Positions 2,110 through 46,260 of a stretch of DNA of 47,877 bases are shown one piece after another. Position 1 is the first letter of the stretch. Each line of letters opens with the position of its first letter. This DNA is from Prevotella sp. (GTDB lineage Bacteria > Bacteroidota > Bacteroidia > Bacteroidales > Bacteroidaceae), in NCBI GenBank assembly GCA_017458125.1, contig JAFTGB010000036.1, positions 1 through 47,877 of the forward strand, read 5' to 3'. The notes under the pieces were generated by a model. The model worked only from the letters and a program-made list of their open reading frames with translations, was not told where the DNA came from and did no database searches. Both the position numbers and the translations under genes were made by a program.

Positions 2110-3861
2110 ATGGAACTTAAACGAAAACCGTTCCTCATTAACCGGGCCGTCAACAAGTTCCTGATGGCCTCTGTGGTTTCTGCCGTAGCTGTCCAACTGG
2201 CAGTTATGACAGATTCTATTATCGTGGCAAACTTCGTGGGACCTAATGCCATGTCTGCCATCAGTGTTTGCACGCCAGTGGTAGCCATCATCGTCAACAT
2301 AGGCTATATGATCAGTATGGGAAGTACGCTACTCATGTCGAAGGCTATCGGGGAGAACAATATGGAACACAGCAGTCATGTTGCTGCCGTAGCCCTCGCT
2401 ATGCTCATCGGTTCAGGACTGATTCTGATCGTGGCTGGCTTGCTGTTCAGCGATGTGCTGGTGTCGTTCATTTGTTCCGATTCCTCTATTGCCGGCTATG
2501 CCAAGACCTGGCTGCGTCTCTTCTTCTTGCTCGAAGTGCTGCCGCTCTTCATATATAATGCTGTATGTGGCTTCACCGAGGCCGACGGCAGCCCACAGAT
2601 GGTTACCCGTGCCGTCATTATTGGCGGTATTGCTAACGTCCTGCTCGATTTGTTGTTTGTAGGTGTTTTCCATTGGGGCATCAGCGGAGCGATGTATGCC
2701 ACAGTCTCCAACGACTTTATTGTGTTATTCATCCTATGCCGCCATCTCTACCACCATAGTAAACTGCGCTTCCACATGCCCAATGGTGGCATTCTGAAGA
2801 TTTCCCGCGAGATAATCGGCGAGGGTGCTGCTTTAACTGTTGGCGAGTCTGCCCTCATGGTAGGTCTTATGGTGCTTAACTCCGCCATCATCTACACCTT
2901 AGGCAGTAACGGCATGTTCATCTGGAGTGTGTGTATGGCATTATTCACGTTTGTGCTGATAGCCATGAGCGGAGTGGAGACTTCTATGGTTTCCATTGGC
3001 GGATTCCTCACTGGCGATGACGATTTCAATGGTCTCCGTCTGATGGTTCGCCATGTGATGTGGATAGTCTGCTCACTGCTCTTCCTGCTCACTGTGGCCA
3101 TTATGGTTGCGCCTCAGGCAGTGGCGGTTGTTTTCGGTGCCCGTGGGGCTAACATAGACACCTTGTCGAAGGCCTTACGCATCTTCTCACTGTGCCTGGT
3201 GCCTGTTGGCGCGATGAATATCATGCGTGTGGTGTTCCAACTGTTGGGACATCGTTTTGCCAGCGGAGCTCTCTTCACCAGTCAGATGCTTTTCATGGAC
3301 TTTGTAATCGGTGTCTTCGCCTTCCTCATTCCAGGTTTGGTATGGTGGGGCTTCCCCATCTCGAGTGTAATGATGCTGGCCATGATGTTTGCCTATACGC
3401 TGTATCACCATCATCGCAATCAGGAACTATCGCCGTTTACGCTTATTCCCCGACATGCACCCGAGACGTCGCTTGACTTCTCCGTGCCCTACGATACAGA
3501 TGCTCTTGGAGAGTCGCTGGAACGTATCCGCTGTTTTGTAACAGGCTATCCGCAGTTGCAGGGACGTGTCAACGATATTATGCTGACGTGTGAGGAGATT
3601 ATAAAGAACATCATCGAGCACAGCAAAGGAGATGTCCTGAAGTGGAGTTTCGACGTTCACCTGCGTTATACCGATAATCGGATTTCTTTCATCATCAAGG
3701 ATGCTGGTCTGGCTTTCAATCCTATGGAGCATTTGCCCCAGTCTCATTTGGACCTTGACAAGCCTCAGTTTGGCATCCGCCTGATGTCCGCCACGTGCGA
3801 AGAGCTCAGCTACAAGTACATGTGGGGGCAGAACATGATGTTTGGCACCTTCCGCATATAG
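2110..3861 (+). CDS. MATE-family exporter fused to an RsbW-like ATPase domain
   Basis: The protein has 583 residues. Residues ~1-435 hold about twelve hydrophobic segments with MATE character (opening FLMASVVSAVAVQLAVMTDS, then IGYMISMGSTLLMSKAIGE), so an ion-coupled multidrug or metabolite exporter in the inner membrane. Residues ~455-583 are a soluble GHKL ATPase domain like anti-sigma kinases RsbW/SpoIIAB: N box CEEIIKNIIEH (Asn500), G1 IIKDAGLAFNP (Asp531, Gly533) and a GIRLM G2-like motif (555-559). An ordinary MATE protein is ~440-460 residues, so the extra domain is a real fusion, and the frame is continuous across the junction. It starts 2 nt after the NRPS stop, suggesting that it exports the NRPS product. 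The ATPase may be a kinase of an anti-sigma-factor antagonist or only a nucleotide sensor; this is inference. Confidence 0.9.
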   Translation: MELKRKPFLINRAVNKFLMASVVSAVAVQLAVMTDSIIVANFVGPNAMSAISVCTPVVAIIVNIGYMISMGSTLLMSKAIGENNMEHSSHVAAVALAMLIGSGLILIVAGLLFSDVLVSFICSDSSIAGYAKTWLRLFFLLEVLPLFIYNAVCGFTEADGSPQMVTRAVIIGGIANVLLDLLFVGVFHWGISGAMYATVSNDFIVLFILCRHLYHHSKLRFHMPNGGILKISREIIGEGAALTVGESALMVGLMVLNSAIIYTLGSNGMFIWSVCMALFTFVLIAMSGVETSMVSIGGFLTGDDDFNGLRLMVRHVMWIVCSLLFLLTVAIMVAPQAVAVVFGARGANIDTLSKALRIFSLCLVPVGAMNIMRVVFQLLGHRFASGALFTSQMLFMDFVIGVFAFLIPGLVWWGFPISSVMMLAMMFAYTLYHHHRNQELSPFTLIPRHAPETSLDFSVPYDTDALGESLERIRCFVTGYPQLQGRVNDIMLTCEEIIKNIIEHSKGDVLKWSFDVHLRYTDNRISFIIKDAGLAFNPMEHLPQSHLDLDKPQFGIRLMSATCEELSYKYMWGQNMMFGTFRI

Positions 3862-31748: not shown

Positions 31749-31807
31749 GCTGCTACAACTTCTTCCCCCTTGTTTCAATGCTCTCTTTAGACTAAGAGTT
31801 TGCGTTG

Positions 31808-31815
31808 CAAAGTTA
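31808..31815 (-). promoter_or_regulatory. Promoter box for the PP2C/DUF3467 operon
   Basis: TAACTTTG on the minus strand matches TAnnTTTG, 60 nt upstream of the ATG at 31,748. No clear -33 box. Confidence 0.55.
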
Positions 31816-31967
31816 CGAAAAAAGGTTGTAAAAGCGAAGCGATTTTGGAAGATTAACGCAATTCAGCCTAAAATAAAGGCAAGACGGGGAAGAATGAAGA
31901 AGTTCAATTTGGACTAAAAGCAAATTGGGGAGGATTGGTGAAAGAGTTAGGTTTCCAAATCGTAACC

Positions 31968-32089
31968 TCATTTAGCCATCTCCTTCATCTTTGTGATGAC
32001 GCTTTTGAAGCTCGTCAGCAGTTCTTCGACGAGCGAAGCGGCAAGCCGATTACCTCGTAGGTACTGCGCTCAATTGAAATTACTTCCAT
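31968..32089 (-). pseudogene. Frameshifted remnant of a small mobile-element gene (excisionase-like leader)
   Basis: From the ATG at 32,089 the frame reads MEVISIERSTYEVIGLPL before a stop. A second frame then continues EELLTSFKSVITKMKEMAK to a TGA at 31,968. Together they look like one short gene broken by a frameshift. Beginnings of the MEVISIE-type are common for small DNA-binding (excisionase-like) proteins of Bacteroidota mobile elements. A promoter box TACCTTTG sits 29 nt upstream (32,125-32,118, minus). Assignment rests on a short stretch only. Confidence 0.35.
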
Positions 32090-32125
32090 GTCTTGTTTAG
32101 TTTTTATAATCTGCGGACAAAGGTA

Positions 32126-32441
32126 CATCATGATTTCCAGGTAAGATTACTTTAAAAATTCCTTGTTGTGGAATAACAATTCAGGGAAACAAGACCCTAA
32201 TGTCTGCCGAGCTTGCTCATCAGAAAGCAGACAAGCATCTTTGTGTGGCACTCCGCCACAAAGTGCGTATTAGGCTACACCCTTCTACGGAATCTATTTG
32301 TGGTTTTGCAAGCTATCTGGGGTAGACATCTTCCCTCTATTGTAACATGCTGCAAGCACCTTAGCTTTATTCATTACGACATCACGATCGTCAGTCCATC
32401 ACATCTATCTTATAAATTCTTCTCTCATTGTCTCAAAAATA
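32126..32441. other. AT-rich spacer with no gene recognised
   Basis: No convincing coding sequence on either strand. An imperfect dyad around 32,239-32,263 (CTTTGTGTGGC ... GCCACAAAG) could be a terminator stem at the end of the minus-strand operon. The stretch from ~31,850 marks the change from GC-rich chromosomal to AT-rich accessory sequence. Confidence 0.5.
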
Positions 32442-33008
32442 TTAATCTCTTATAATTATCTTCCCTCCACCTGGGCCAAAAATAAAGTCGCCTATCAGAC
32501 GGACTGATCGAGGGATATACAGCGTAACAAATTGGCGGCATGTAGCGAATGCCATAGAACATATCGTCACTACACCTTCCGGCACATGGTATTCGTTATC
32601 TTTGAATCCAGCCCTTGCGAACAATAACCGATGCCTATCGAGGCTATAGGCTATATCATTTTCATCCATGCGGTACTCTCCATCATCCTCAAAGGCATCC
32701 GTCTGCTCATCGCGACAGGAATAGTCTTTTTGCCAGAAATATACACAAGGCATCAGATTCTCATTTTCCTCTTTATTTTTACTAAACACAAGCTGGTCAC
32801 AATCATGCACATGAGCCGTCCAAGGAATATGCAGCGTATCAATCTTGCACCCTAATAATGCTTCAGGATCAATATCTTCTACTCCCTCAGGAATCCAATA
32901 TGCACCCTTTACGTTCGCTCCCTTCAGTAAGCGTTTACCATCACCAGAGTAAACAAAACCATGGCTGTCCATCCATAGTCTCTCGTCAGCTTCAGTGAGT
33001 TTGCCCAT
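32442..33008 (-). CDS. BspA-type leucine-rich-repeat protein
   Basis: The protein has 188 residues with no signal peptide. Two LRR_5 (BspA-like) blocks are visible: GAYWIPEGVEDIDPEALLGCKIDTLHIP near residues 35-62 and YHVPEGVVTICSMAFATCRQFVTLYIPRSVRLIGDFIF near 138-175. Between them is an acidic stretch (DEQTDAFEDDGEYRMDENDIAY). LRR_5 proteins usually mediate protein-protein contacts and are often surface-exposed. It is the last gene of the nine-gene minus-strand operon and overlaps the preceding small membrane gene by 17 nt. Its role is unknown; recognition or immunity toward a partner is one guess. Confidence 0.75.
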   Translation of the reverse strand: MGKLTEADERLWMDSHGFVYSGDGKRLLKGANVKGAYWIPEGVEDIDPEALLGCKIDTLHIPWTAHVHDCDQLVFSKNKEENENLMPCVYFWQKDYSCRDEQTDAFEDDGEYRMDENDIAYSLDRHRLLFARAGFKDNEYHVPEGVVTICSMAFATCRQFVTLYIPRSVRLIGDFIFGPGGGKIIIRD

Positions 33009-33150
33009 ACCAATAGAAGAAAAATAGAATCAATATTATTACCCCTATTGCGATAATAGCCCCAATAAGCCTACCAAGCAAAAACTTGAAATATTCTCCC
33101 CACGAGTTAAACTCGAATAAGAACCCATTGAACTCTTTGAAAAATCTCAT
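32992..33150 (-). CDS. Small one-helix membrane protein
   Basis: The protein has 52 residues from the ATG at 33,150, which overlaps the preceding stop (TAATG). A TTG start 27 nt upstream is possible but unlikely. The C-terminal half is a strong transmembrane helix (LIGAIIAIGVIILILFFFYWY). No family is recognised. Position between the metalloprotease and LRR genes, with overlaps on both sides, suggests co-translation and a shared function. Confidence 0.65.
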   Translation of the reverse strand: MRFFKEFNGFLFEFNSWGEYFKFLLGRLIGAIIAIGVIILILFFFYWYGQTH

Positions 33151-33578
33151 TACATATACAGCTTTTTGACGAACCAATACGAAATTGATGGCGTGCCCTT
33201 TCTCCGCTTATATTCCGACAAATCTACCGTTGGCGTTATATGGAGCCCATACGACGCATTCAGTTTTGCAGCCATTTCCTTGAATTTCTTTCCATGTTTA
33301 CAGCTTCTGTCGATACCAAAGTAGGCCAGATAGTAATGAATCATCTCATGACACATGATGTCCCTGAACTGTTTCTCCGTGAAGTCGTAATAGTCTGTCA
33401 TGGATATAGTTGGGTCATATAGAGTTTTATCAAGCCAGCCTCCTTTGGTGTATTGGAAGTATCCGCATGTTCTAAATGAATGCAACAACGCGAATTGTGG
33501 GAACAACAACTTACCCTCAAAATACTCCATATTACAGAGATTGAAGGTGTCAAGCATATTGTCGTGGTTGGCCACCAT
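33150..33578 (-). CDS. SprT-like zinc metallopeptidase
   Basis: The protein has 142 residues from the ATG at 33,578; the TTG at 33,584 is not required. The zinc site is HEMIH (His77, Glu78, His81), with His95 in HGKKF as the likely third ligand, the SprT arrangement. The N-terminal part (LDTFNLCNMEYFEGKL) also fits SprT-like proteins. The substrate is unknown. In this operon, 6 nt after a WXG100-like gene, it could process secreted proteins or a toxin. SprT relatives otherwise act on DNA-bound proteins, so a DNA-related job is an alternative. Confidence 0.8.
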   Translation of the reverse strand: MVANHDNMLDTFNLCNMEYFEGKLLFPQFALLHSFRTCGYFQYTKGGWLDKTLYDPTISMTDYYDFTEKQFRDIMCHEMIHYYLAYFGIDRSCKHGKKFKEMAAKLNASYGLHITPTVDLSEYKRRKGTPSISYWFVKKLYM

Positions 33579-33584
33579 AAGCAA

Positions 33585-33857
33585 CTATCCTTTGTATGCC
33601 CATTCAGGAGCAGATAGTTCTTTGCTCAATTCCTGCTCCATGCTTTTCAACTGCTCCAAAGAACTGTTAATACCCGTCTGTACCTGCTCAACGGTCTGCA
33701 TATATTCCTGGCAGGTGTTATTTACGACGGTAACACAAGTACTGCTGAACTGTTCTGACTTTTTATCCTGCCAGTTATCGTTCAGTATTTGATTATTTCG
33801 ATTGAACGCCTGCACATACTGGTGCATCTCGTCAAGAAGCATCTTCAACTGTTTCAT
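33585..33857 (-). CDS. WXG100-like small helical protein (second copy)
   Basis: The protein has 90 residues, almost entirely helical. A central LNDNWQDKKSEQF segment has Trp29 at a predicted turn between two helices, the layout of ESAT-6/WXG100 proteins, although the motif reads W-Q-D instead of W-x-G. It shares the NWQDKK/GWQDKQ block and flanking acidic/amide residues with the 92-residue protein encoded upstream at 34,338-34,616, so they are probably paralogs. The start overlaps the previous stop (ATGA). In type VII systems such proteins are secreted as helical-hairpin dimers; that role here is inferred from the neighbouring FtsK-type ATPase. Confidence 0.7.
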   Translation of the reverse strand: MKQLKMLLDEMHQYVQAFNRNNQILNDNWQDKKSEQFSSTCVTVVNNTCQEYMQTVEQVQTGINSSLEQLKSMEQELSKELSAPEWAYKG

Positions 33858-34330
33858 TGCTTATATTCATTTAGTGCATCGATGGCTTTCTTTAGGAAAT
33901 TATTGCCTTCGTCCCTGCTATTCTCCAATTTGTGTCTTTGACGGTTGGTCATCCACTCCACACGTTCAAACTCTCCATGGATATTCTGATAGAGCTTCTT
34001 GGCTGATTCTGCATAGTTCTGAGCCTTTTTGTAAAGAGCTTTATATTTTTCCAAAGCCTGCTCTCGATGCGCCAATTCCTGCCCGTCCATACCTCCACCT
34101 CTTTTAACAGATGCTTCATAGTCTGCTTTGGCATGAGCAAGTTTCTGCTGGGCAATATTCAGATGATCCTTTATCTTATGTTCCAGTTCTCGTGCCTGAT
34201 CGTCTTTCTGAGCGAAGAGGTTACGAAACCTGTAGGTCATCTGTATCGTCGACTCCATGAATCTGTTATAAGCAGTGGAGTACGACTCTAAGAGCCGTAC
34301 TTCCCTTACTTTTACATCACTGTTTGCCAT
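33854..34330 (-). CDS. Coiled-coil protein between the two WXG100-like genes
   Basis: The protein has 158 residues with no Trp-turn motif and no membrane segment. It is strongly helical and charged (AQKDDQARELEHKIKDHLNIAQQKLAHAKADYEASVK, EQALEKYKALYKKAQNYAESAKKLY). A glycine-rich break (KRGGGMDG) divides it into two long helices. The stop overlaps the next start (ATGA) and it begins 7 nt after the first WXG100-like gene. By analogy with type VII loci, it could be a chaperone or targeting partner of the small secreted proteins; no family was recognised. Confidence 0.6.
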   Translation of the reverse strand: MANSDVKVREVRLLESYSTAYNRFMESTIQMTYRFRNLFAQKDDQARELEHKIKDHLNIAQQKLAHAKADYEASVKRGGGMDGQELAHREQALEKYKALYKKAQNYAESAKKLYQNIHGEFERVEWMTNRQRHKLENSRDEGNNFLKKAIDALNEYKQ

Positions 34331-34337
34331 CTTGGAA

Positions 34338-34616
34338 CTATCTTATGTTTTGATATTCCATCAACTTCGAGGTTATCTTGGCGATGTAGTTGGAATACTC
34401 CGTAAACATCTCCGACATCTTCTTGATGTCCTGCACACTACGATCAAACTGCTCACGGAACTTATCGTTTTGCTTATCCTGCCATCCTTCAGAGACGGCG
34501 TTCATACGCTGCTGGGCTGCTTGCATCGTCTGATACATGTTCTGCCCCAAGTTCTTAATGTTCTTACCAAACAGAGCCAACTGCTCTATGTTTTTTACAC
34601 CAGCATCACTTGCCAT
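34338..34616 (-). CDS. WXG100-like small helical protein (first copy)
   Basis: The protein has 92 residues, two long amphipathic helices with a turn at VSEGWQDKQNDKF (Trp45). Length, Trp position and the shape helix-Trp turn-helix match the WXG100 family; the third motif residue is Asp, not Gly. After the turn comes REQFDRSVQDIKKMSEMFTEYSNYIAKI. No C-terminal YxxxD/E export signal was seen. It lies 24 nt downstream of the FtsK/SpoIIIE-type ATPase gene, the classical WXG100-ATPase pairing. Confidence is good for the fold and lower for secretion. Confidence 0.78.
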   Translation of the reverse strand: MASDAGVKNIEQLALFGKNIKNLGQNMYQTMQAAQQRMNAVSEGWQDKQNDKFREQFDRSVQDIKKMSEMFTEYSNYIAKITSKLMEYQNIR

Positions 34617-34640
34617 AGTCTTATACCTTATTTATTATCG

Positions 34641-37271
34641 TTAGAAATCAAACGGAGTAAACAGCGTGTAACTGTTATTTGTCTCATTATAATAGATAGC
34701 CCTTAGACGCTCAATGTCTGAAGAGAGATTTTCCAGTTTCAGATCATCGCTCATTCCAAGCGTATTGACGGCATTTTCATCACTCTTCAGCATGATAAGA
34801 TGATGGAACATATTGAAGAAATCCTTTGCCGACATGTAGTCAGAGAATAGCAACTGCTTGGGCTTGTCAATCTGAAGGATGACATGCACGCCAACCTCAG
34901 CACCGTTTTTCAGAATATACTCAATCACCTTCTGATAACTATTGAAGTCGGTACTTCCACTATCACCGGCAGAGAACATGCTACTATCGAATCCGAAGTC
35001 ATCGGCAGCTGCAGTTGGCTTGGCTGAAGCAATCTCCATATCCATACGCAATTCCCTGAATCGCTCTTGTCCGAGGATATATAGCACAGTCGGCTCTGCT
35101 GTTCTATCCTTGATAGAAGTTGCGATACTTACTAGTTCAGTACCACAATCCTGTGGGTTCAGCAGTTCTATTTCTCCCTTACCTTCCAAGTCATTAAGCA
35201 TCTTGGTGGTATTTCGCTGGTCTGAAGGCAGACAATTGATGACCTTAATCTTAATGTTCTTGTTAGAGATTCTCAGACTCTTGATAGAAGCCATCGTAGT
35301 ACGTGAAACCTGTTCCTCGTCGTTGATGCCGAACAACATCACGTTGTCTGCATATTCATTACGCAATGGGATGACAACAGGTTCCATCTTCGTATCAATA
35401 GAGCGACCAAAAGCAATTGCATCACCCTTCTTGGTGAGCAAGCTCTTCACTTCATCATCAATCTCGAATATCTGCGAGCCCACGAAGTAGAACTGCTCAT
35501 TCTTTGAAGCCTTCGTCTTTTCGTTAATCTTCTTGATAATTTCAAGAGCCTGCGGTGTGGGCAGATAAGTGGACTTGAACACCACATCATTATCAATATC
35601 ATGATGAAGCACTTGACCCGTTTTTAGTGCACTTGTCGTATCAACAGAACCACGAACCAGCCTTTCTGAATCACCAGGCGAACACTTCAGCAGATAGAAG
35701 TCTGAGATATTGTTGAGTATCTCGCTCGAAATTTCAGCCTGAGCAATGGTCTGTGTTGCCAATACGAGGTGTACGCCCTGACTACGTCCTTCCTTCGCAA
35801 TCTTCTGCAGAATTTCAGAGATTTCACGATACAACTTGGCCTCCTTACTGTTCATCGTTGGGAACATCACGTGACACTCGTCAGCGATAAAAACGATACG
35901 AGGCATCTTCTTCGTTGGATTCACCTGATTATATTCCACAATATTCGAGACACCGCTGGCTCGGAGTAGCTTACCACGCTCACGCATCTTGTTGCTGATG
36001 TCGCGAAGAATCTCCAGTGTAATTTGGATATCCGAATTGTCAACGAGTAGTGCCTTCACATGCTTCTCATTGCGATAACGGTTAAACTCCACACCACCAA
36101 TCTTGAAGTCCATCAGGTATAGCTCCAGTTCTTCTGGTGAGTACTTTGCCATTGCGCCAATGATGACATCGTGCAGGAATACTGACTTACCCGTACCAGA
36201 CTGTCCAATGATAAAGCAATGTATATGGCTTACGGTATCAAGCGTGAAGTCCACCAAGTCGCCTTGCTCCGTGGAGCCGACAGGAATCACCATCGCCCTG
36301 TCTATCTTCTCAAATCCTCCAGAAAGCATTTGGTCGTAATCCACGCTGGCCGCTGCCACCTGCGGCAGCTCAGCCCCCTCATTGATGTAGTTGAAGCAGG
36401 CCTTTGCCAAGATGGGATTGTCGAGAATGGGGGTGCAACGGATAAAAGCATCCTTGGAATAATTCCCATAGTTCTCTGCTTCCAACACTTGATAGAAGTT
36501 TTTCAAAGCCAACAGCGAGTCAATATCCCTATCGTTCTTGAAGTCCAGGTTATTCATTAACACAAAGTAGATTCCACCTTTATGGCCATTCTCAAACAGC
36601 GCATCCAAGTCGCGCATATCGTTAAGACACTTCTGGTAATCTGTTATGACCACCACGTCGTAAGGAACCACGACCTTATTCTTGCTCTCGTTGTATTTAA
36701 CCACATCGCCGTATTCCTCCAACGACTTCGCCATTTTGGCCCTAAGATTATCCTTCAGCTGATTCCAATCGTTTGGACTACTAATCAGCTTACCATACAA
36801 CTTCTCATCCAAGTTTCTCGTTAGGAACGAAGCCTGAGCCGAGAACGCAAGATCAACGAAATGTAGATTGAAACTTCTACCGGGGAGTGATAACAGTATA
36901 TCAACAATCAACTGGTTCAAACGTCCTTGCGCTTTCTCTGCTGTCTTGTTCGTGTAGTTAATCACAAAGTTCTGGCCAGCCTTTCCATCTTGCCACTCCA
37001 TTATGGTTGGCGTTTCAATGATTATATTACCCACTCTATCAACGGTATGTTGGCCATCTGGCAGATAGGGGGCAAAACTCTTTCTATTCACATTATCCGC
37101 AATCTTGCTAAATACAGTCAGAGCGTTTTCTGAAGATGAAACTTCAATGTTGAACAGGAATAGAGGAAGAAAGTTGTCTCTAACGGCTTTCAGGAAATCC
37201 TCATTCTCAAAAGTCTTTGAGTTAATTGCAATATACTCAACTAATTGTTTTATTTGTTTTGTTGTCTTCAT
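34641..37271 (-). CDS. FtsK/SpoIIIE-type ATPase (EssC/EccC-like, no membrane segment)
   Basis: The protein has 876 residues. The central domain has Walker A GQSGTGKS (356-363), Walker B IVFIADE (~459-465) and a sensor-like LVLATQT (~503-509), as in FtsK/HerA motors. The N-terminal ~300 residues look like a degenerate ATPase-like or adaptor region. The C-terminal ~270 residues look like another degenerate ATPase module (VMLFGINDEEQ in place of a Walker A, TVLYILGQER in place of a Walker B). Several tandem modules with only one intact is the pattern of type VII EssC/EccC. Unlike those proteins, it has no transmembrane helices or FHA domains, so it must attach to another membrane protein; the preceding gene encodes a candidate. 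Two WXG100-like genes follow directly. Confidence 0.85.
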   Translation of the reverse strand: MKTTKQIKQLVEYIAINSKTFENEDFLKAVRDNFLPLFLFNIEVSSSENALTVFSKIADNVNRKSFAPYLPDGQHTVDRVGNIIIETPTIMEWQDGKAGQNFVINYTNKTAEKAQGRLNQLIVDILLSLPGRSFNLHFVDLAFSAQASFLTRNLDEKLYGKLISSPNDWNQLKDNLRAKMAKSLEEYGDVVKYNESKNKVVVPYDVVVITDYQKCLNDMRDLDALFENGHKGGIYFVLMNNLDFKNDRDIDSLLALKNFYQVLEAENYGNYSKDAFIRCTPILDNPILAKACFNYINEGAELPQVAAASVDYDQMLSGGFEKIDRAMVIPVGSTEQGDLVDFTLDTVSHIHCFIIGQSGTGKSVFLHDVIIGAMAKYSPEELELYLMDFKIGGVEFNRYRNEKHVKALLVDNSDIQITLEILRDISNKMRERGKLLRASGVSNIVEYNQVNPTKKMPRIVFIADECHVMFPTMNSKEAKLYREISEILQKIAKEGRSQGVHLVLATQTIAQAEISSEILNNISDFYLLKCSPGDSERLVRGSVDTTSALKTGQVLHHDIDNDVVFKSTYLPTPQALEIIKKINEKTKASKNEQFYFVGSQIFEIDDEVKSLLTKKGDAIAFGRSIDTKMEPVVIPLRNEYADNVMLFGINDEEQVSRTTMASIKSLRISNKNIKIKVINCLPSDQRNTTKMLNDLEGKGEIELLNPQDCGTELVSIATSIKDRTAEPTVLYILGQERFRELRMDMEIASAKPTAAADDFGFDSSMFSAGDSGSTDFNSYQKVIEYILKNGAEVGVHVILQIDKPKQLLFSDYMSAKDFFNMFHHLIMLKSDENAVNTLGMSDDLKLENLSSDIERLRAIYYNETNNSYTLFTPFDF

Positions 37272-37306
37272 TTTTTTGTCCTTTTATTCAGATTCAATTT
37301 TAGCAA

Positions 37307-38395
37307 TCACTTCTTTCTGTTTTTTATCCCCCTCCAAATCCATCTTATAAGATAATACCAGAAGTAACAACATAATACCATAACGACTCCACCTATGAAA
37401 CCGTTACTTACTTCCAATTCTTTGTAATCTGATGCGCCAAAAATGAATAAGAGAATAATAATGATAGAATGTTTTATTATTAGCTTCTTTCTCTTCTTTC
37501 TTGATTCTTCTTCTTCCTTTTCTTGCAATAGTGCATTACGCTTTTCCTCTTTCTCTTTTCGAATACGTTCTTTTTCTTCTTTCTCCCATTTGTTCTTGAT
37601 TGTTTCAATCTTTGGCATAACTTCTTTTCGCCAAAGTCTTGAACAACGTGTTGATATCTCGTTCAATTCATTTCTTGCGACAGCAAAAATTCCTGCAATA
37701 TCGATACTTGAAAGAAGAGAATATCCCTCTATTTCTATAACTTCTAATACATTTGAAAAATGTATGGAACTACTGTTTTCTTTTAGTTTACTCTCTATCT
37801 TTTGATACAATGGATTATTGCTATCAACTTCCCCGAATTGAAGCCATTGCAAAGCATCAGAATAGTCTCCTGAGTCAGACATGATTTGAGCAGCAATAAC
37901 ACACGAAGATGGGTCTTGGCAAATGGCTGCTATTTCAATGATTGATTTCTCCCTTTTATCTCCACCTTTTGTATAATCTTTTAAAATTGAGGTTATTGCA
38001 TTATTAAGGACTCTCGTTGGTAGTTTCCATTTATTGAGCCAATCACGCAAAATCTCTCTTTCTTGAATTACTTTCTCAATATAGGAGTTTTCTAGGTCAT
38101 CTACTGCACTACACGCTGCTTTAGCATAGCTCATGAAAGCCGATGAGTAGTCACCATCTAATTCTGAGAGGAAACCTAAAAATCGCTGAGAGTCGTGATC
38201 ATTTAATAATGATTGAGACGAGAAATGTAACTTGGCTTTTTTGAAGTCTATAGCTGTGTTTATACCAAGCAAATAAACCATGCCCATCTGGAAACACGCT
38301 TTGGGGTCCCCATTTTTCGCACTTTCATTCAGTTTAAAACTATTTCTGGATGTTTCTGCGATTAAATCTTTTAAGGAAGTGATATATTTATTCAT
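37307..38395 (-). CDS. Sel1-repeat protein with C-terminal membrane segments
   Basis: The protein has 362 residues. Near the N terminus a Sel1-like repeat is visible (NGDPKACFQMGMVYLLGINTAIDFKKAKLHF), and further helical pairs continue to ~residue 200. A charged region of Glu/Lys/Arg (KEEKERIRKEKEEKRNALL) leads to two hydrophobic segments near the C terminus (IIKHSIIIILLFIFG and GFIGGVVMVLCCYFWYYLI). It could be the membrane anchor or docking protein for the cytosolic FtsK-type ATPase, 35 nt downstream. No Esa/Ess family similarity was recognised. Confidence 0.65.
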   Translation of the reverse strand: MNKYITSLKDLIAETSRNSFKLNESAKNGDPKACFQMGMVYLLGINTAIDFKKAKLHFSSQSLLNDHDSQRFLGFLSELDGDYSSAFMSYAKAACSAVDDLENSYIEKVIQEREILRDWLNKWKLPTRVLNNAITSILKDYTKGGDKREKSIIEIAAICQDPSSCVIAAQIMSDSGDYSDALQWLQFGEVDSNNPLYQKIESKLKENSSSIHFSNVLEVIEIEGYSLLSSIDIAGIFAVARNELNEISTRCSRLWRKEVMPKIETIKNKWEKEEKERIRKEKEEKRNALLQEKEEEESRKKRKKLIIKHSIIIILLFIFGASDYKELEVSNGFIGGVVMVLCCYFWYYLIRWIWRGIKNRKK

Positions 38396-38408
38396 ATTTT
38401 AAGTGTGA

Positions 38409-38996
38409 TTATTGTTCTGGTTCTTTAAACTTACTCCAATCGACTTTTCTTTTCCTTACGACATAATGGAAAAGATTGTCTTTGCCGTTCTCTTCTTCAT
38501 ATCCAATGGAATCTATTATTCCTTTTTTCCTGTCATATATGTCATCATCATCTTCTTCTATTAATGCAACAACATATAACCATGAATTTTGGTCTAAAAA
38601 ATACCTTTTACAGAAGTCACATTTTATTTCCTTTATTCTGCTTAGGGTGTCATTTCCGTGGAAATATTTCAGTTCTAATGCAAATGAATCATTTCTATAA
38701 ATAAATTCTTTTTGATTGCTTGCATTTTCCATTCCTTCTTTTGTGAGTAATAGAATATCAACTCTATATTGGGGTCTTGGGATTCCATCAAAATAATGTG
38801 AGACCTGAGTATGTATAGTAAAATCACCAGGTCTTGGCATCTGATAATCATTGTGGCCCAATCTGTTCATTATACTCCAACAGACCAGTCTTTCAAAATC
38901 AGCTTCTGATAGCACAATTTCTGGTTCTTGCTCCAATTTTGGCTCACAATCATGCAAAGATGCTTCAATAAGATTCTTCAATTCGGACAACTCCAT
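38409..38996 (-). CDS. Putative PD-(D/E)XK-fold protein at the head of the operon
   Basis: The protein has 195 residues from the ATG at 38,996; the TTG at 39,002 is less likely. YRVDILLLTKEG (Asp80) followed by SFALELKYF (Glu108, Lys110) matches the D...ExK active-site spacing of restriction-like nucleases, with hydrophobic strands around both. The C-terminal part is acidic (EEDDDDIYDRKKG) and ends with a basic strand. No known family is recognised. It is the first gene of the minus-strand operon, 13 nt before the Sel1-membrane gene. It could be a nuclease effector, a DNA-sensing part or an immunity/defence element. No clear promoter was found upstream. Confidence 0.6.
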   Translation of the reverse strand: MELSELKNLIEASLHDCEPKLEQEPEIVLSEADFERLVCWSIMNRLGHNDYQMPRPGDFTIHTQVSHYFDGIPRPQYRVDILLLTKEGMENASNQKEFIYRNDSFALELKYFHGNDTLSRIKEIKCDFCKRYFLDQNSWLYVVALIEEDDDDIYDRKKGIIDSIGYEEENGKDNLFHYVVRKRKVDWSKFKEPEQ

Positions 38997-39002
38997 AATC
39001 AA

Positions 39003-39441: not shown

Positions 39442-41040
39442 ATGGAACAGCAAATTTTCATTCGTGAGATGGTGGCTCATTTCAACTTACGAGAGCCAAA
39501 ATCGGAAAAGCCGACACCTATTTATATGGTAATACGGATAGGAAGAAAACAATTAAAGTTTCCAATCGGGTGCAAAATTTATCCCTCTCAATGGAACAAG
39601 AAAACAGAGAGAGCCTTCATTTCTCCACTCCTGACAGAGTTAGATAATCAAAACAATTTTATCGTCAATTCAAAAATTTCTCATTTTTTATTTCTCTTTA
39701 GTCAGTTTTTGCAGTATATTTGCAATGAACCACAAAATATTGACGATATGGAAAGAAAATTAAGAGAGGACATCGGAAAAGGGAAGAAAACGAGAGCAAC
39801 AAAGAAAGAGGATGCAATTAGATGGTTGTTCAACGACTTGGAAAGGGCATCAATGAAAGCCGGTAGCAAAGCGAACTACGAACAGCAGTTAAAGGATTTT
39901 GAGACTTTCTGTAAAGACACAAACAGAGTGCCACTCCAATGGGAAGAAATAACTTACAACCTCCTCACAGAATACGAGGATTGGCTAATGACCCACAATG
40001 TCAGAAACAAGAAACGGGATGACCGCACCGTAGGAGATAAGGTCTCAAAACTCATAACAAGACTAAAAAAAGCCGAGAAAGCGGGAGTTATTGACCTCTA
40101 CAAATCCCGTGTGTACTTGTACGAGAAGCCAAAGGTCTCTTATCTGTCACAGAATAACACATTTGCTTTAGATGAGAGTGAAATATCAGCGTTATATCGC
40201 TTGAAATTAACAGGGGACAAAGAGAAAATAAGGGATGTTTTTGTCTTTCAAGTATGGAGCGGCCAACGTTTTAGTGACATTCCAAATCTGAACAATGGAA
40301 TTATCGACCGAGAGAACAAACTAATTAAGATTATTCAAGAGAAGGAAACGGAACCAGTAACAATTCCCATATTGCCAATAGCACTTGAAATCCTTAATAA
40401 GTATGATTGGAATCTTCCTTTGTTCCCGATGGAAAAGACCAACGAGACATTGAAAGAGGTGGCCCAGATGGCACGACTAACACGAGAGCATTATGTTACG
40501 CACCAACACAGAGGGGATGTTAAAAGTGAGAGGCGAATGATTTGCGATGATTTGGCGACACATTGCGCTCGTAGGACTTTTATAACGCTAATGCTGACAA
40601 ATAAGTATTTAACAAAGGAAGAGACACAAGCAATATCAGGTCACAGAACAGACTCAGCCTTTAACCGATACGTTAAAGTAAATAAAGACAAAATAGCAGA
40701 TAATGTCATACACAAATTTTATGGTGAAAAGATGGAACAGCCTCAACAAGTGCCATCGGTTCCAGTAACCGCAGCCTCAACTTCACAAGTCACCATAGAC
40801 TACATAGAGCGTAGCGTTAGGGAGAAGATACAACTTGAAAACACGGTGAAAGAGCAAGCCGAGCAGTTGCATCGACAAGAGCAAGAGACAAGCACCATGC
40901 GCCAGCGCATGGAGCGGCAAGGCAAGGAACTGAAAGACTATCAAGACACCATCACGACAGCCGAATATATTGATAAGGTCGGAGATTTAGCCATGCAAGC
41001 CGAACAAGATGCGATTTTCCTCTACCGTGAGCAGCCGTAA
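39442..41040 (+). CDS. Tyrosine integrase of an integrative element
   Basis: The protein has 532 residues. It has an N-terminal Arm-binding-like region, a SAM-like core-binding domain (~122-215) and a catalytic domain with Arg276 (GQRFSD), His374-x-x-Arg377 (THCARRTF), His401 (ISGHRT) and Tyr410 (FNRY), so the full R-H-R-H-Y set. The C-terminal ~110 residues add a coiled coil rich in Gln/Glu, longer than usual (~400 residues) for Bacteroidota integrases. It would integrate and excise the element that follows. It is divergent from the nine-gene operon to its left, so whether that operon travels with it is open. Confidence 0.95.
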   Translation: MEQQIFIREMVAHFNLREPKSEKPTPIYMVIRIGRKQLKFPIGCKIYPSQWNKKTERAFISPLLTELDNQNNFIVNSKISHFLFLFSQFLQYICNEPQNIDDMERKLREDIGKGKKTRATKKEDAIRWLFNDLERASMKAGSKANYEQQLKDFETFCKDTNRVPLQWEEITYNLLTEYEDWLMTHNVRNKKRDDRTVGDKVSKLITRLKKAEKAGVIDLYKSRVYLYEKPKVSYLSQNNTFALDESEISALYRLKLTGDKEKIRDVFVFQVWSGQRFSDIPNLNNGIIDRENKLIKIIQEKETEPVTIPILPIALEILNKYDWNLPLFPMEKTNETLKEVAQMARLTREHYVTHQHRGDVKSERRMICDDLATHCARRTFITLMLTNKYLTKEETQAISGHRTDSAFNRYVKVNKDKIADNVIHKFYGEKMEQPQQVPSVPVTAASTSQVTIDYIERSVREKIQLENTVKEQAEQLHRQEQETSTMRQRMERQGKELKDYQDTITTAEYIDKVGDLAMQAEQDAIFLYREQP

Positions 41041-45231: not shown

Positions 45232-46260
45232 ATGAACAAGGAACTGTATTTTGGAGTAGATGTGTCTAAGAATTGGCTTGACGTTGCCTATTACAACGGA
45301 GTAACAATTGACTGGAAAGGTGGTCATATCCGAGTTGATAACAATCTCCATGGCTTTATTCAGATAGGCAAGTGGTTAAAAAAGTTAAATGCTGAAAAGG
45401 ATTGCGCACTTTTTTGTATGGAGTATACAGGATTGTATAGCCAAGGATTTCGTTTGTGGCTTGAAAAGGAAGGCATAAAATACGGAATGGTCCAACCTCG
45501 TAAGATGCATCGTTTTGAACCTGATCTTGGCGAGAATGAGCGTGCTATAGACCGTATCAAGACAGACGAGGTGGATTCCTTCCGTATCGCGATTTATTGT
45601 GAGAAACATCAACGGAAAATAAAGACTTCTCCATCGAAGCTACCAGGAGAGGCTTATCTCAAATTGAAACGTTTATTATCAGAACGTAAGCAATACACCA
45701 AACAATCCACTCTATATAAGCAGCAGTTGCATGACATCTCTGAATATGATACAGAAGGATCGTGTAAACGCAAACAGTACGGATTGGATTTTGTAAAAAA
45801 TCAGATTCACCAAACGGATAAGGAAATTCAAAAAGTTTTAGAACAAGACCCGAATTTAGCAACAAACTATAATTTGTTGCGCTCCATTAAGGGAATAGGG
45901 CTAGTCGTGGCTGTTGAAACCATTGTATTAACAGAAAATTTTACGTCTATATCGAATCCTCGTAAATATGCCTGCTACATAGGCATAGCCCCAGCAAGGA
46001 AAGAGTCTGGAATAAGTGTAAAAGGAGGTGAACATGTATCTAGGAAGGGCTTTACACAGGCGAAGGCGGATTTGTCTATTGTTTGTCTTGTGTCCATCAA
46101 GTGGGATCCAAACATAAAAGCATATTGGGAACGTAAAAAGGCCGAAGGCAAATGTACGGGAATTGTGCTTAATGCTATAAAATTTAAACTGGTTTTACGC
46201 ATGTTTGCCGTTATAAAACGTCAGCAGCCTTATGTGATTATTGACGGCCACAAGAAATAG
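45232..46260 (+). CDS. IS110-family transposase (element A)
   Basis: The protein has 342 residues. The N-terminal DEDD (RuvC-like) domain is visible as FGVDVSKNWLDVAYY, CMEYTGLYSQGF and IDRIKTDEVDSFRIAIY. The C-terminal Transposase_20 domain has LLRSIKGIGLVVAVETIV and YACYIGIAPARKESGIS, with the serine of this last motif as the expected second active-site residue. IS110 enzymes are guided by an RNA encoded in the element's non-coding end. The 5' gap is short (~100-150 nt) and the 3' gap has a 9-bp inverted repeat (46,300-46,308 with 46,357-46,365), so a 3' RNA of the IS1111 type is possible. Element borders cannot be fixed because this family makes no target duplications. Confidence 0.95.
   Translation: MNKELYFGVDVSKNWLDVAYYNGVTIDWKGGHIRVDNNLHGFIQIGKWLKKLNAEKDCALFCMEYTGLYSQGFRLWLEKEGIKYGMVQPRKMHRFEPDLGENERAIDRIKTDEVDSFRIAIYCEKHQRKIKTSPSKLPGEAYLKLKRLLSERKQYTKQSTLYKQQLHDISEYDTEGSCKRKQYGLDFVKNQIHQTDKEIQKVLEQDPNLATNYNLLRSIKGIGLVVAVETIVLTENFTSISNPRKYACYIGIAPARKESGISVKGGEHVSRKGFTQAKADLSIVCLVSIKWDPNIKAYWERKKAEGKCTGIVLNAIKFKLVLRMFAVIKRQQPYVIIDGHKK

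Follow-up and report, generated by a model that had tools for sequence, protein, structure and literature searches.

Does a Prevotella operon that pairs an FtsK-type ATPase with WXG100-family proteins export proteins, or does it act inside the cell? The operon lies in a contig stretch of 47,877 nucleotides, called the window here, and has an integrase next to it. It encodes an ATPase that is related to EccC/EssC and retains a single intact nucleotide site, accompanied by a WXG100 protein, a coiled coil and another helical protein with W-x-D.

All nine open reading frames are present on the minus strand (39002..32442), tightly packed and with correct coordinates. The preliminary description of nine same-strand genes that overlap or lie within 40 nt of each other is right, because the successive spacings are +13, +35, +24, +7, −4, 0, −28 and −17 nt, i.e., from +35 to −28 nt. 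Its domain labels held in part: FtsK, WXG100 in gene 4, SprT and LRR score over the Pfam cut-offs, whereas Sel1 and WXG100 in gene 6 fall below them and PD-(D/E)XK finds no Pfam match. The G+C content is 0.407 in the operon and 0.421 from 39003 onward, compared with 0.551 for positions 1-31778. A tyrosine recombinase of the neighbouring island (39442..41040, plus strand), with PF00589 and PF13102 over cut-off, is divergent from the operon. A search for att-site repeats around the operon yielded nothing usable, and an empty-site search using the flank, part of which is a dispersed repeat, yielded nothing.

The ATPase, or motor, is encoded by gene 3 (34641..37271, minus strand; 876 aa). It matches Pfam FtsK_SpoIIIE over cut-off (E = 5.9e-24) as well as NCBIfam EccCa (7.7e-29) and EssC (2.2e-27, covering residues 341-801), both far below their full-length cut-offs. 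With a profile of 11 motor relatives, EccC (4nh0, 5e-39) ranks above FtsK (2ius, 2.2e-22), and YukB also outranks FtsK, which places the motor nearer to EccC/EssC than to the housekeeping protein. That it is the housekeeping FtsK itself was rejected, as a separate match exists in the same genome at G000:C61. The earlier claim that this Bacteroidota locus pairs a motor of type VII kind with WXG100-like proteins was right; the gene 4 product, WXG1, scores 33.6 bits against Pfam WXG100 (cut-off 27.3). A Walker scan located one Walker A site (residues 356-363) with one Walker B site (460-465), and exactly one Walker A was found in each of 17 motors scanned. Of three putative FtsK/HerA domains in the motor, the degenerate first matches the second at E = 5.2e-6, with five shuffled controls reaching no better than 0.0056. 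The third is weakly supported, at E = 0.0047 and a probability of 7.5, where none of five shuffles did better than 0.18; the L039 motor has no third domain. In PADLOC the motor hits SspH (7.7e-21) and several HerA entries, matches that are of a superfamily-level kind. A phage origin was rejected, as phage records match the motor only partly (none of 202 covers 80%), and peptide-pattern scans of viral contigs (six and two patterns) found no motor relative.

WXG1 (34338..34616, minus strand; 92 aa) lies directly after the motor gene. Its profile matches EsxA (2vs0) at 3.2e-6, ranked below one designed-protein match, and Helicobacter pylori HP0062 (structures 2gts and 3fx7) weakly, at E = 0.014. 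The WXG-like proteins at the locus read W-x-D, not W-x-G, and the W and D of WXG1 are invariant in all 11 aligned rows. No further WXG100 protein was found at E = 0.001 in the window's genome, which is 88% complete. The gene 6 product, WXG2 (33585..33857, minus strand; 90 aa), scores 14.7 bits against Pfam WXG100, below the cut-off of 27.3. In the PDB, profile searches with WXG2 and with the coiled-coil protein gave coiled-coil noise, and EsxA 3zbh at 0.018 for WXG2. The AlphaFold2 model of WXG2 (mean pLDDT 83) has helices at residues 2-30 and 34-81 with a break at 31-33 adjoining W29-x-D31, and fits a hairpin and a bent helix alike; the motor model from two rows was unusable (pLDDT 36). Foldseek and VIA-align searches with the WXG2 model, which exclude nothing, gave nothing at E = 0.001, only generic helical proteins and no WXG100 among the matches listed.

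Between the two WXG genes lies gene 5 (33854..34330, minus strand; 158 aa), a coiled-coil protein proposed as an effector carrier. Of the 13 family loci, 12 have a coiled coil at the same position, with a length of 155-171 aa in ten and 236-257 aa in two. Pairwise similarity to the window's coiled coil was found in L057 and L058 only, and to its WXG2 in L057 only; the other relatives' proteins show none at E = 1e-3. Beyond L057 and L058, the two nearest relatives, both were assigned by position, size and W-x-D, and the WXG2 W-x-D count is partly circular because the pattern aided the choice of reading frame in some loci. An LXG match in one of 10 coiled-coil members (E = 9.6e-5) stands among similar coiled-coil noise. 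Read by eye, distant coiled-coil proteins carry extra C-terminal parts: that of Caballeronia shows D...ExK, and those of Rhodococcus and L040 resemble ParB. L040 also gives a GNAT match just below cut-off (20.1 vs. 20.7 bits), and the Caballeronia, Rhodococcus and L066 proteins have no Pfam match at 0.01. A WXG-protease fusion in L032, its parts also read by eye, has no Pfam match at 0.001.

One rival reading is a reduced type VII-like exporter, in which a Sel1/transmembrane protein or a transmembrane peptide would form the inner-membrane part, the WXG proteins and an attached effector would cross, and another route would serve the outer membrane. The motor family and the Pfam-supported WXG100 protein encoded beside it are as in type VII secretion. 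Gene 2 (37307..38395, minus strand) could supply the membrane part: its Sel1 match is poor (12.5 bits against a cut-off of 30.7, E = 0.24), and hydropathy gives it two C-terminal hydrophobic helices, at residues 303-324 and 327-351, which make it a candidate membrane anchor. It has homologues in L057 and L058, and an adjacent Sel1-type protein with membrane helices occurs in these two, in L038 and in the window; Sel1 or TPR genes adjoin the motor in L038, L059, L061, L064 and L065. In addition, the motors of L040 and L041, from Bacteroidales outside the family, carry a hydrophobic stretch near the N-terminus. However, the window motor has no predicted membrane helix (top 19-residue mean hydropathy 1.25, threshold 1.6), whereas type VII ATPases are anchored by N-terminal membrane helices. 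The YukD-like ubiquitin partner and the EssB/YukC membrane partner of T7SSb, which the first description had likewise failed to see, were each found in none of six genomes searched, with Bacillus subtilis positive as control; EccB (T7SSa) was likewise found in none of six, in a search where no control genome was positive either. YxxxD/E is the export signal in type VII substrate tails, and it is missing from the last 30 residues of 13 WXG1-type, 10 coiled-coil and seven WXG2 proteins; this absence is only moderately telling because few were expected by chance (0.97, 2.22 and 0.33, respectively, at their own background rate, about 3.5 in total). No outer-membrane partner was noticed by eye. A full T7SS was rejected, on the missing motor helix, YukC/YukD and YxxxD/E tails, and a reduced exporter is considered possible but doubtful.

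WXG partners are known from protein transport, which tells against another reading, that of a DNA-handling conflict system whose FtsK-type motor captures invading DNA for a nuclease, with the hairpins being structural. The motor does belong to the FtsK/HerA superfamily, and the operon is headed by gene 1 (38409..39002, minus strand; 197 aa), a possible PD-(D/E)XK nuclease by a D...ExK pattern read by eye. Further, HerA/FtsK capture systems have been proposed (PMC12839542, as far as its available text goes), and in CoCoNuT-type loci the coiled-coil protein carries a fused REase (PMC11090510, section 10). However, the profile favours EccC over DNA-translocating FtsK, and gene 1, without a Pfam match, was not recovered by tblastn from the plasmid collection or from any of 12 family loci. 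DNA handling is rated as improbable.

The search for the same gene order in Bacteroidota recovered a smaller core, not the nine-gene unit. The core, i.e., motor, WXG-like protein, coiled coil and second short helical protein, often with a Sel1/TPR gene, was found in 13 of 399 family genomes (L039, L040 and L041, of other Bacteroidales, are outside these counts), and the same order is seen in other genera. In all 13 loci the motor gene is followed by a WXG gene, which comes next in 11 and one gene later in two. Single genes were sought by tblastn at E = 1e-3 against 12 family loci, with 6-19.5 kb read per locus and contig ends cutting L058, L062, L063, L066 and L103. The nine-gene unit was rejected, since genes 1, 8 and 9 recur in none of the 12 and SprT in one. 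Gene 8 (32992..33177, minus strand; 61 aa) encodes a one-helix membrane peptide (hydrophobic stretch 29-60), and gene 9 (32442..33008, minus strand; 188 aa) an LRR_5 protein just over cut-off (PF13306, 28.0 vs. 27.7 bits). Gene 7 (33150..33584, minus strand) encodes a SprT-like zinc metalloprotease with the motif HEMIH (PF10263, 39.5 bits, cut-off 25.6), a candidate effector, whose 52% identical copy occupies the same place in L057 only; plasmids of Prevotellaceae have SprT-like genes too, and one of these plasmids, by its annotation, lacks the motor/WXG module. An order-wide search gave 23 of 295; except in G000, G293 and G209, the matches were not counted because they were limited to profile positions 326-655, like those of housekeeping FtsK. 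A two-pattern scan of genome contigs found the named strain record Bacteroidales bacterium SW299, a carrier of the core, and a weak locus, L043.

Between the window and L057, WXG1 and FtsK are 85% and 81% identical in amino acids with synonymous sites at or near saturation, and since the order also recurs in other genera, the arrangement exceeds chance. The same comparison points to purifying selection on the core genes. The coiled coil, WXG2, SprT and Sel1 proteins are 41-66% identical, a split as would be expected for a machine and its variable cargo. This selection bears on a further reading, that the locus is cargo which helps its mobile element to persist, to be transferred or to exclude rival elements, with no direct gain for the cell. 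The locus lies next to an integrase, on the border of a low-GC stretch, and the L038 copy lies in an element with a Mob_Pre gene and, by eye, integrases. However, the copies in L057, L060 and L061 have ordinary chromosomal neighbours, as judged by eye, and the selection on the core also speaks against this reading; element cargo is rated as rather improbable.

The neighbourhoods of related motors touch on conflict. The annotation of L031 lists VWA, PP2C, kinase and CARF genes, and the Rhodococcus motor bears a TerD domain (E = 4.4e-19). PADLOC matched five of 10 eye-picked neighbours, all in L059 (AbiEii and FRG) or L064 (AriA/AriB), a figure that has no background rate and includes one general helicase; none of the four picked in L039 and L065 matched. 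In L103, from a genome of the window's family, the motor, WXG block, JAB-like and E1 genes stand together, and an E1 51% identical to that of L103 lies upstream of the motor in the fecal contig L032. A distinct intracellular conflict machine without secretion may be imagined, in which helical W-x-D proteins serve as adaptors that bring a variable carrier of effectors to a soluble EccC-type ring with a single site, and in which a Cap2-like E1 and a JAB peptidase have joined one branch; we hold this to be unlikely. If the E1/JAB branch is read correctly, ubiquitin-like conjugation would be linked to a type VII-derived motor in bacteria.

Our leading reading, held with slightly less than even confidence, is that the locus represents a Bacteroidota branch of mobile type VII-like modules and may be a conflict module whose adaptors present effectors to the ATPase inside the cell; action inside is judged somewhat likelier than export. 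The ATPase would assemble into a ring, either cytosolic or seated on the inner membrane's inner face, and the Sel1/transmembrane protein might tether it. WXG1 would be a fixed machine part, and the coiled coil and WXG2 would carry a variable effector, here a separate protein and possibly the SprT protease. The motor could then move or unfold carrier and effector in conflict with phages, mobile elements or neighbours. We know of no experiment on the function of such a module, and none was found in titles and abstract openings among the matches listed, subscription literature aside; in the papers covered, such modules are described from sequence alone. A compact core that recurs in Bacteroidales, with SW299 as one carrier, makes the choice between export and an intracellular role of a helix-less type VII-derived motor testable, and a motor working inside the cell would give WXG100 proteins a role other than secretion.

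The cluster had first been called undescribed, which is too strong because it fits two published descriptions. In table note 6 of PMC3482391 (2012), solo WXG genes are paired with a YueA-like ATPase that has three FtsK/HerA domains, the middle one alone active; the note names Bacteroidetes and terms such sets "mobile versions of T7SS". The window shares the WXG gene beside the ATPase, the single active middle domain and mobility; that note gives no further genes, whereas the present loci repeatedly add a coiled coil and another W-x-D protein, and often a Sel1/TPR gene. Section 10 of PMC11090510 (2024) describes an EssC/WXG100 unit in Type III-A CoCoNuT operons, whose EssC-like ATPase likewise has no membrane helices and is active in its central domain only; a pair of WXG100 proteins, a coiled coil and a REase-like part complete the likeness. 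However, that unit lies between VWA genes in a McrBC-type operon, its REase is part of the coiled-coil protein, and W-x-G is given for one of its WXG100 proteins; the window unit reads W-x-D and stands alone, with no VWA or McrB/McrC-type core among the nine operon and nine flanking proteins scanned. Type VII secretion (T7SSa, T7SSb and further variants), as outlined in the accessible part of PMC11217815, shares the motor family and a WXG100 partner but differs from the window in motor anchoring, number of active domains, W-x-D, YxxxD/E and YukD/YukC. LXG toxins and their Lap partners of T7SSb, in the same source, similarly combine WXG-fold helical partners with a larger effector protein, whereas the window has no fused toxin. 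The WXG and FtsK genes of Helicobacter pylori, also a diderm, are described in PMC4978471 as a minimal type VII set; their partner genes differ from the window's. The available text of PMC7159879 and PMC1779556 treats FtsK in other settings and reports no E1 or JAB with WXG genes. Compared with these systems, the four-gene anatomy, the W-x-D signature, the effector-carrier reading and a sister locus with a Cap2-like E1 and JAB seem to be new.

The nine same-strand genes of the preliminary description were confirmed as nine ORFs on the minus strand (39002 to 32442, spacings −28 to +35 nt) of the window, which spans the entire contig G000:C86. The gene assignments held in part: Pfam matched FtsK_SpoIIIE (the motor), WXG100 (gene 4, WXG1), SprT-like and, barely over the cut-off, LRR_5, and left gene 2 (Sel1) and gene 6 (WXG100, WXG2) under the cut-off, with zero Pfam matches for gene 1. 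At 0.407, the G+C content of the operon is lower than the 0.551 of window 1–31778, and it stays low (0.421) in the stretch beyond, which holds a divergent tyrosine recombinase, a resolvase and two IS110 transposases, the last encoded in tandem near the contig end (45232–46260 and 46598–47632). Positions 45695 and 46250 carry the two members of a 24-nt repeat pair, which are 83% alike. The intergenic stretch 31806–32300, on the left margin of the low-GC region, has copies elsewhere in the same genome and in same-genus genomes, and is therefore a dispersed repeat.

A motor profile built from 11 relatives and compared with solved structures ranked EccC (4nh0, 5e-39), EccC5 and YukB ahead of FtsK (2ius, 2.2e-22), and exactly one Walker A was counted in 17/17 motors compared. 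The region before the active domain is a degenerate copy of it (E 5.2e-6, where five shuffled controls reached 0.0056 at best), and the region after it is weakly supported as another (E 0.0047 at probability 7.5, with no shuffle better than 0.18). The PADLOC (SspH, mad8, HerA) and FtsK-like PHROG matches of the motor are at the superfamily level only. In L040, another Bacteroidales locus, the third domain of the motor recurs as a free-standing copy (2337–3251, 43% identical, E 1e-56) between the motor and a WXG gene, resembling orphan EssC C-terminal cassettes.

Relatives of the motor were found in 13/399 same-family genomes, window included, and in 8/30 genera (two-row profile, E 1e-30 or better). 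In wider samples (393 order and 395 phylum genomes), full-length motors were seen only in the window's genome and G293, with three further partial matches among the order genomes. Across all 13 family loci, window included, the gene order recurs: a WXG gene directly follows the motor in 11 and comes one gene later in two (L058, L065), and the coiled coil is next in 12 (155–171 aa in 10, 236–257 aa in L066 and L103), being unseen in L062. Eleven of the 13 have another short W-x-D gene, which was not seen in L062; the L058 contig stops short of its place. In pairwise tblastn of the window proteins against the 12 relatives (E 1e-3, best piece per locus), the motor was matched in 12/12 and WXG1 in 9/12, the best WXG1 piece of L060 falling on the second W-x-D gene. 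Matches to Sel1 and the coiled coil were confined to the nearest relatives, L057 and L058, those to WXG2 and SprT to L057, and genes 1, 8 and 9 were matched in 0/12; thus, for the coiled coil and WXG2, the other relatives were matched by position and pattern. Other kinds of Sel1 or TPR genes adjoin the motor in L038, L059, L061, L064 and L065.

The W and D are invariant in both alignments (WXG1, 11/11 rows; WXG2, 9/9 rows, some chosen with the aid of the W-x-D pattern). Pfam WXG100 was matched by 8/11 WXG1 members at 0.01 and by 3/9 WXG2 members at 0.1. At least one W-x-D protein is encoded in 5/6 more distant loci (L031, L032, L033, L040, L041), unlike L039, which reads W-x-G. In an AlphaFold2 model of WXG2 the helix is broken at residues 31–33, beside W29-x-D31, and structure comparison could not resolve a hairpin. 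Compared with L057, WXG1 (85%) and FtsK (81%) are the most alike, their synonymous sites being saturated or nearly so, followed by WXG2 (66%), the coiled coil (59%), SprT (52%) and Sel1 (41%). In this respect WXG1 resembles a machine part, and the latter four resemble variable cargo or adaptors.

The neighbours of the module differ elsewhere. A Caballeronia plasmid carries, in annotated order, VWA, WXG100, motor, CARF, VWA, PP2C and kinase genes, and its coiled-coil protein ends in D...ExK (read by eye); a Rhodococcus plasmid encodes a TerD domain on the motor, two W-x-D proteins and a coiled-coil protein whose tail looks ParB-like by eye. The L103 set comprises a motor, two WXG genes, a coiled coil, WXG2, a TM protein, a JAB-like gene (Rpn11, 0.0018) and an E1 (Cap2, 3.6e-10). 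The fecal contig L032 encodes ThiF (E 2.6e-26), the motor and a protein that bears W-x-D close to the start and HELGH later in its sequence (no Pfam match at 0.001). The Cap2-like E1 genes of the two loci (regions L103 1587–6866, on G1195:C38, and L032 584–7371) are 51% identical over 285 columns, each close to a motor-WXG block. Downstream of the L103 E1 (L103 6955–9000, L104 136–2113), an array of five genes in tandem has a common N-terminal motif, about H-I-T-D-x-G-x-I-Y-x-V-x-x-D-G-S-x-T, after which the genes differ; most of the differing parts contain stretches that look hydrophobic by eye. Several tandem genes near the motor-WXG block of L066 (1271–4741) also share one domain, which resembles FISUMP. 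L038 has Mob_Pre and DUF3987 genes, with integrases by eye. Among ten neighbours selected by eye, with no background rate for comparison, PADLOC identified an AriA/AriB pair in L064 (16320–18222, ~4.3 kb past the block) and AbiEii and FRG in L059, and matched 0/4 in L039 and L065. On a Segatella hominis plasmid (L067 5121–6402), a SprT-like gene sharing 38% identity with that of the window adjoins DUF559 and dnaB, with no WXG gene annotated nearby.

A hydropathy scan found no membrane helix in the window motor; a clear N-terminal hydrophobic stretch was seen in the L040 and L041 motors, and those of L061, L062 and L064 were barely over threshold, away from the N-terminus. YukD and YukC were not found in any of 6 genomes searched, and the tail signal YxxxD/E occurred in the last 30 residues of 0 among 13, 10 and 7 proteins, where ~3.5 in all would be expected by chance. 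With these three absences, the module does not qualify as a type VII secretion system by the tested features. The main rival to action within the cell is export across the inner membrane, for which the Sel1/TM protein would provide the anchor. The family of the motor, its single active site, its partners, the order of the genes and their mobile neighbours are observed. As to mechanism, we somewhat favour a module acting within the cell, in a conflict: the motor would assemble as a ring, WXG1 would serve as adaptor, the coiled coil and WXG2 together may carry the effector, and SprT would be that effector in the window's version.

Among the PMC matches listed on WXG100 in Bacteroidota, on WXG100 with FtsK and anti-phage defence, on type VII-like systems in Bacteroidales and on WXG with JAB, ThiF or E1-like proteins, no account appeared either of the four-gene anatomy or of E1/JAB beside the module. 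For WXG100 and FtsK in an anti-phage setting, the PMC literature gave only the CoCoNuT paper (PMC11090510), which cites Anantharaman et al. 2012 for stand-alone copies. By the description in that paper, the Caballeronia plasmid locus is of CoCoNuT type and the module resembles the EssC/WXG unit of CoCoNuTs; it also agrees with the 2012 footnote on "mobile versions of T7SS" (PMC3482391).
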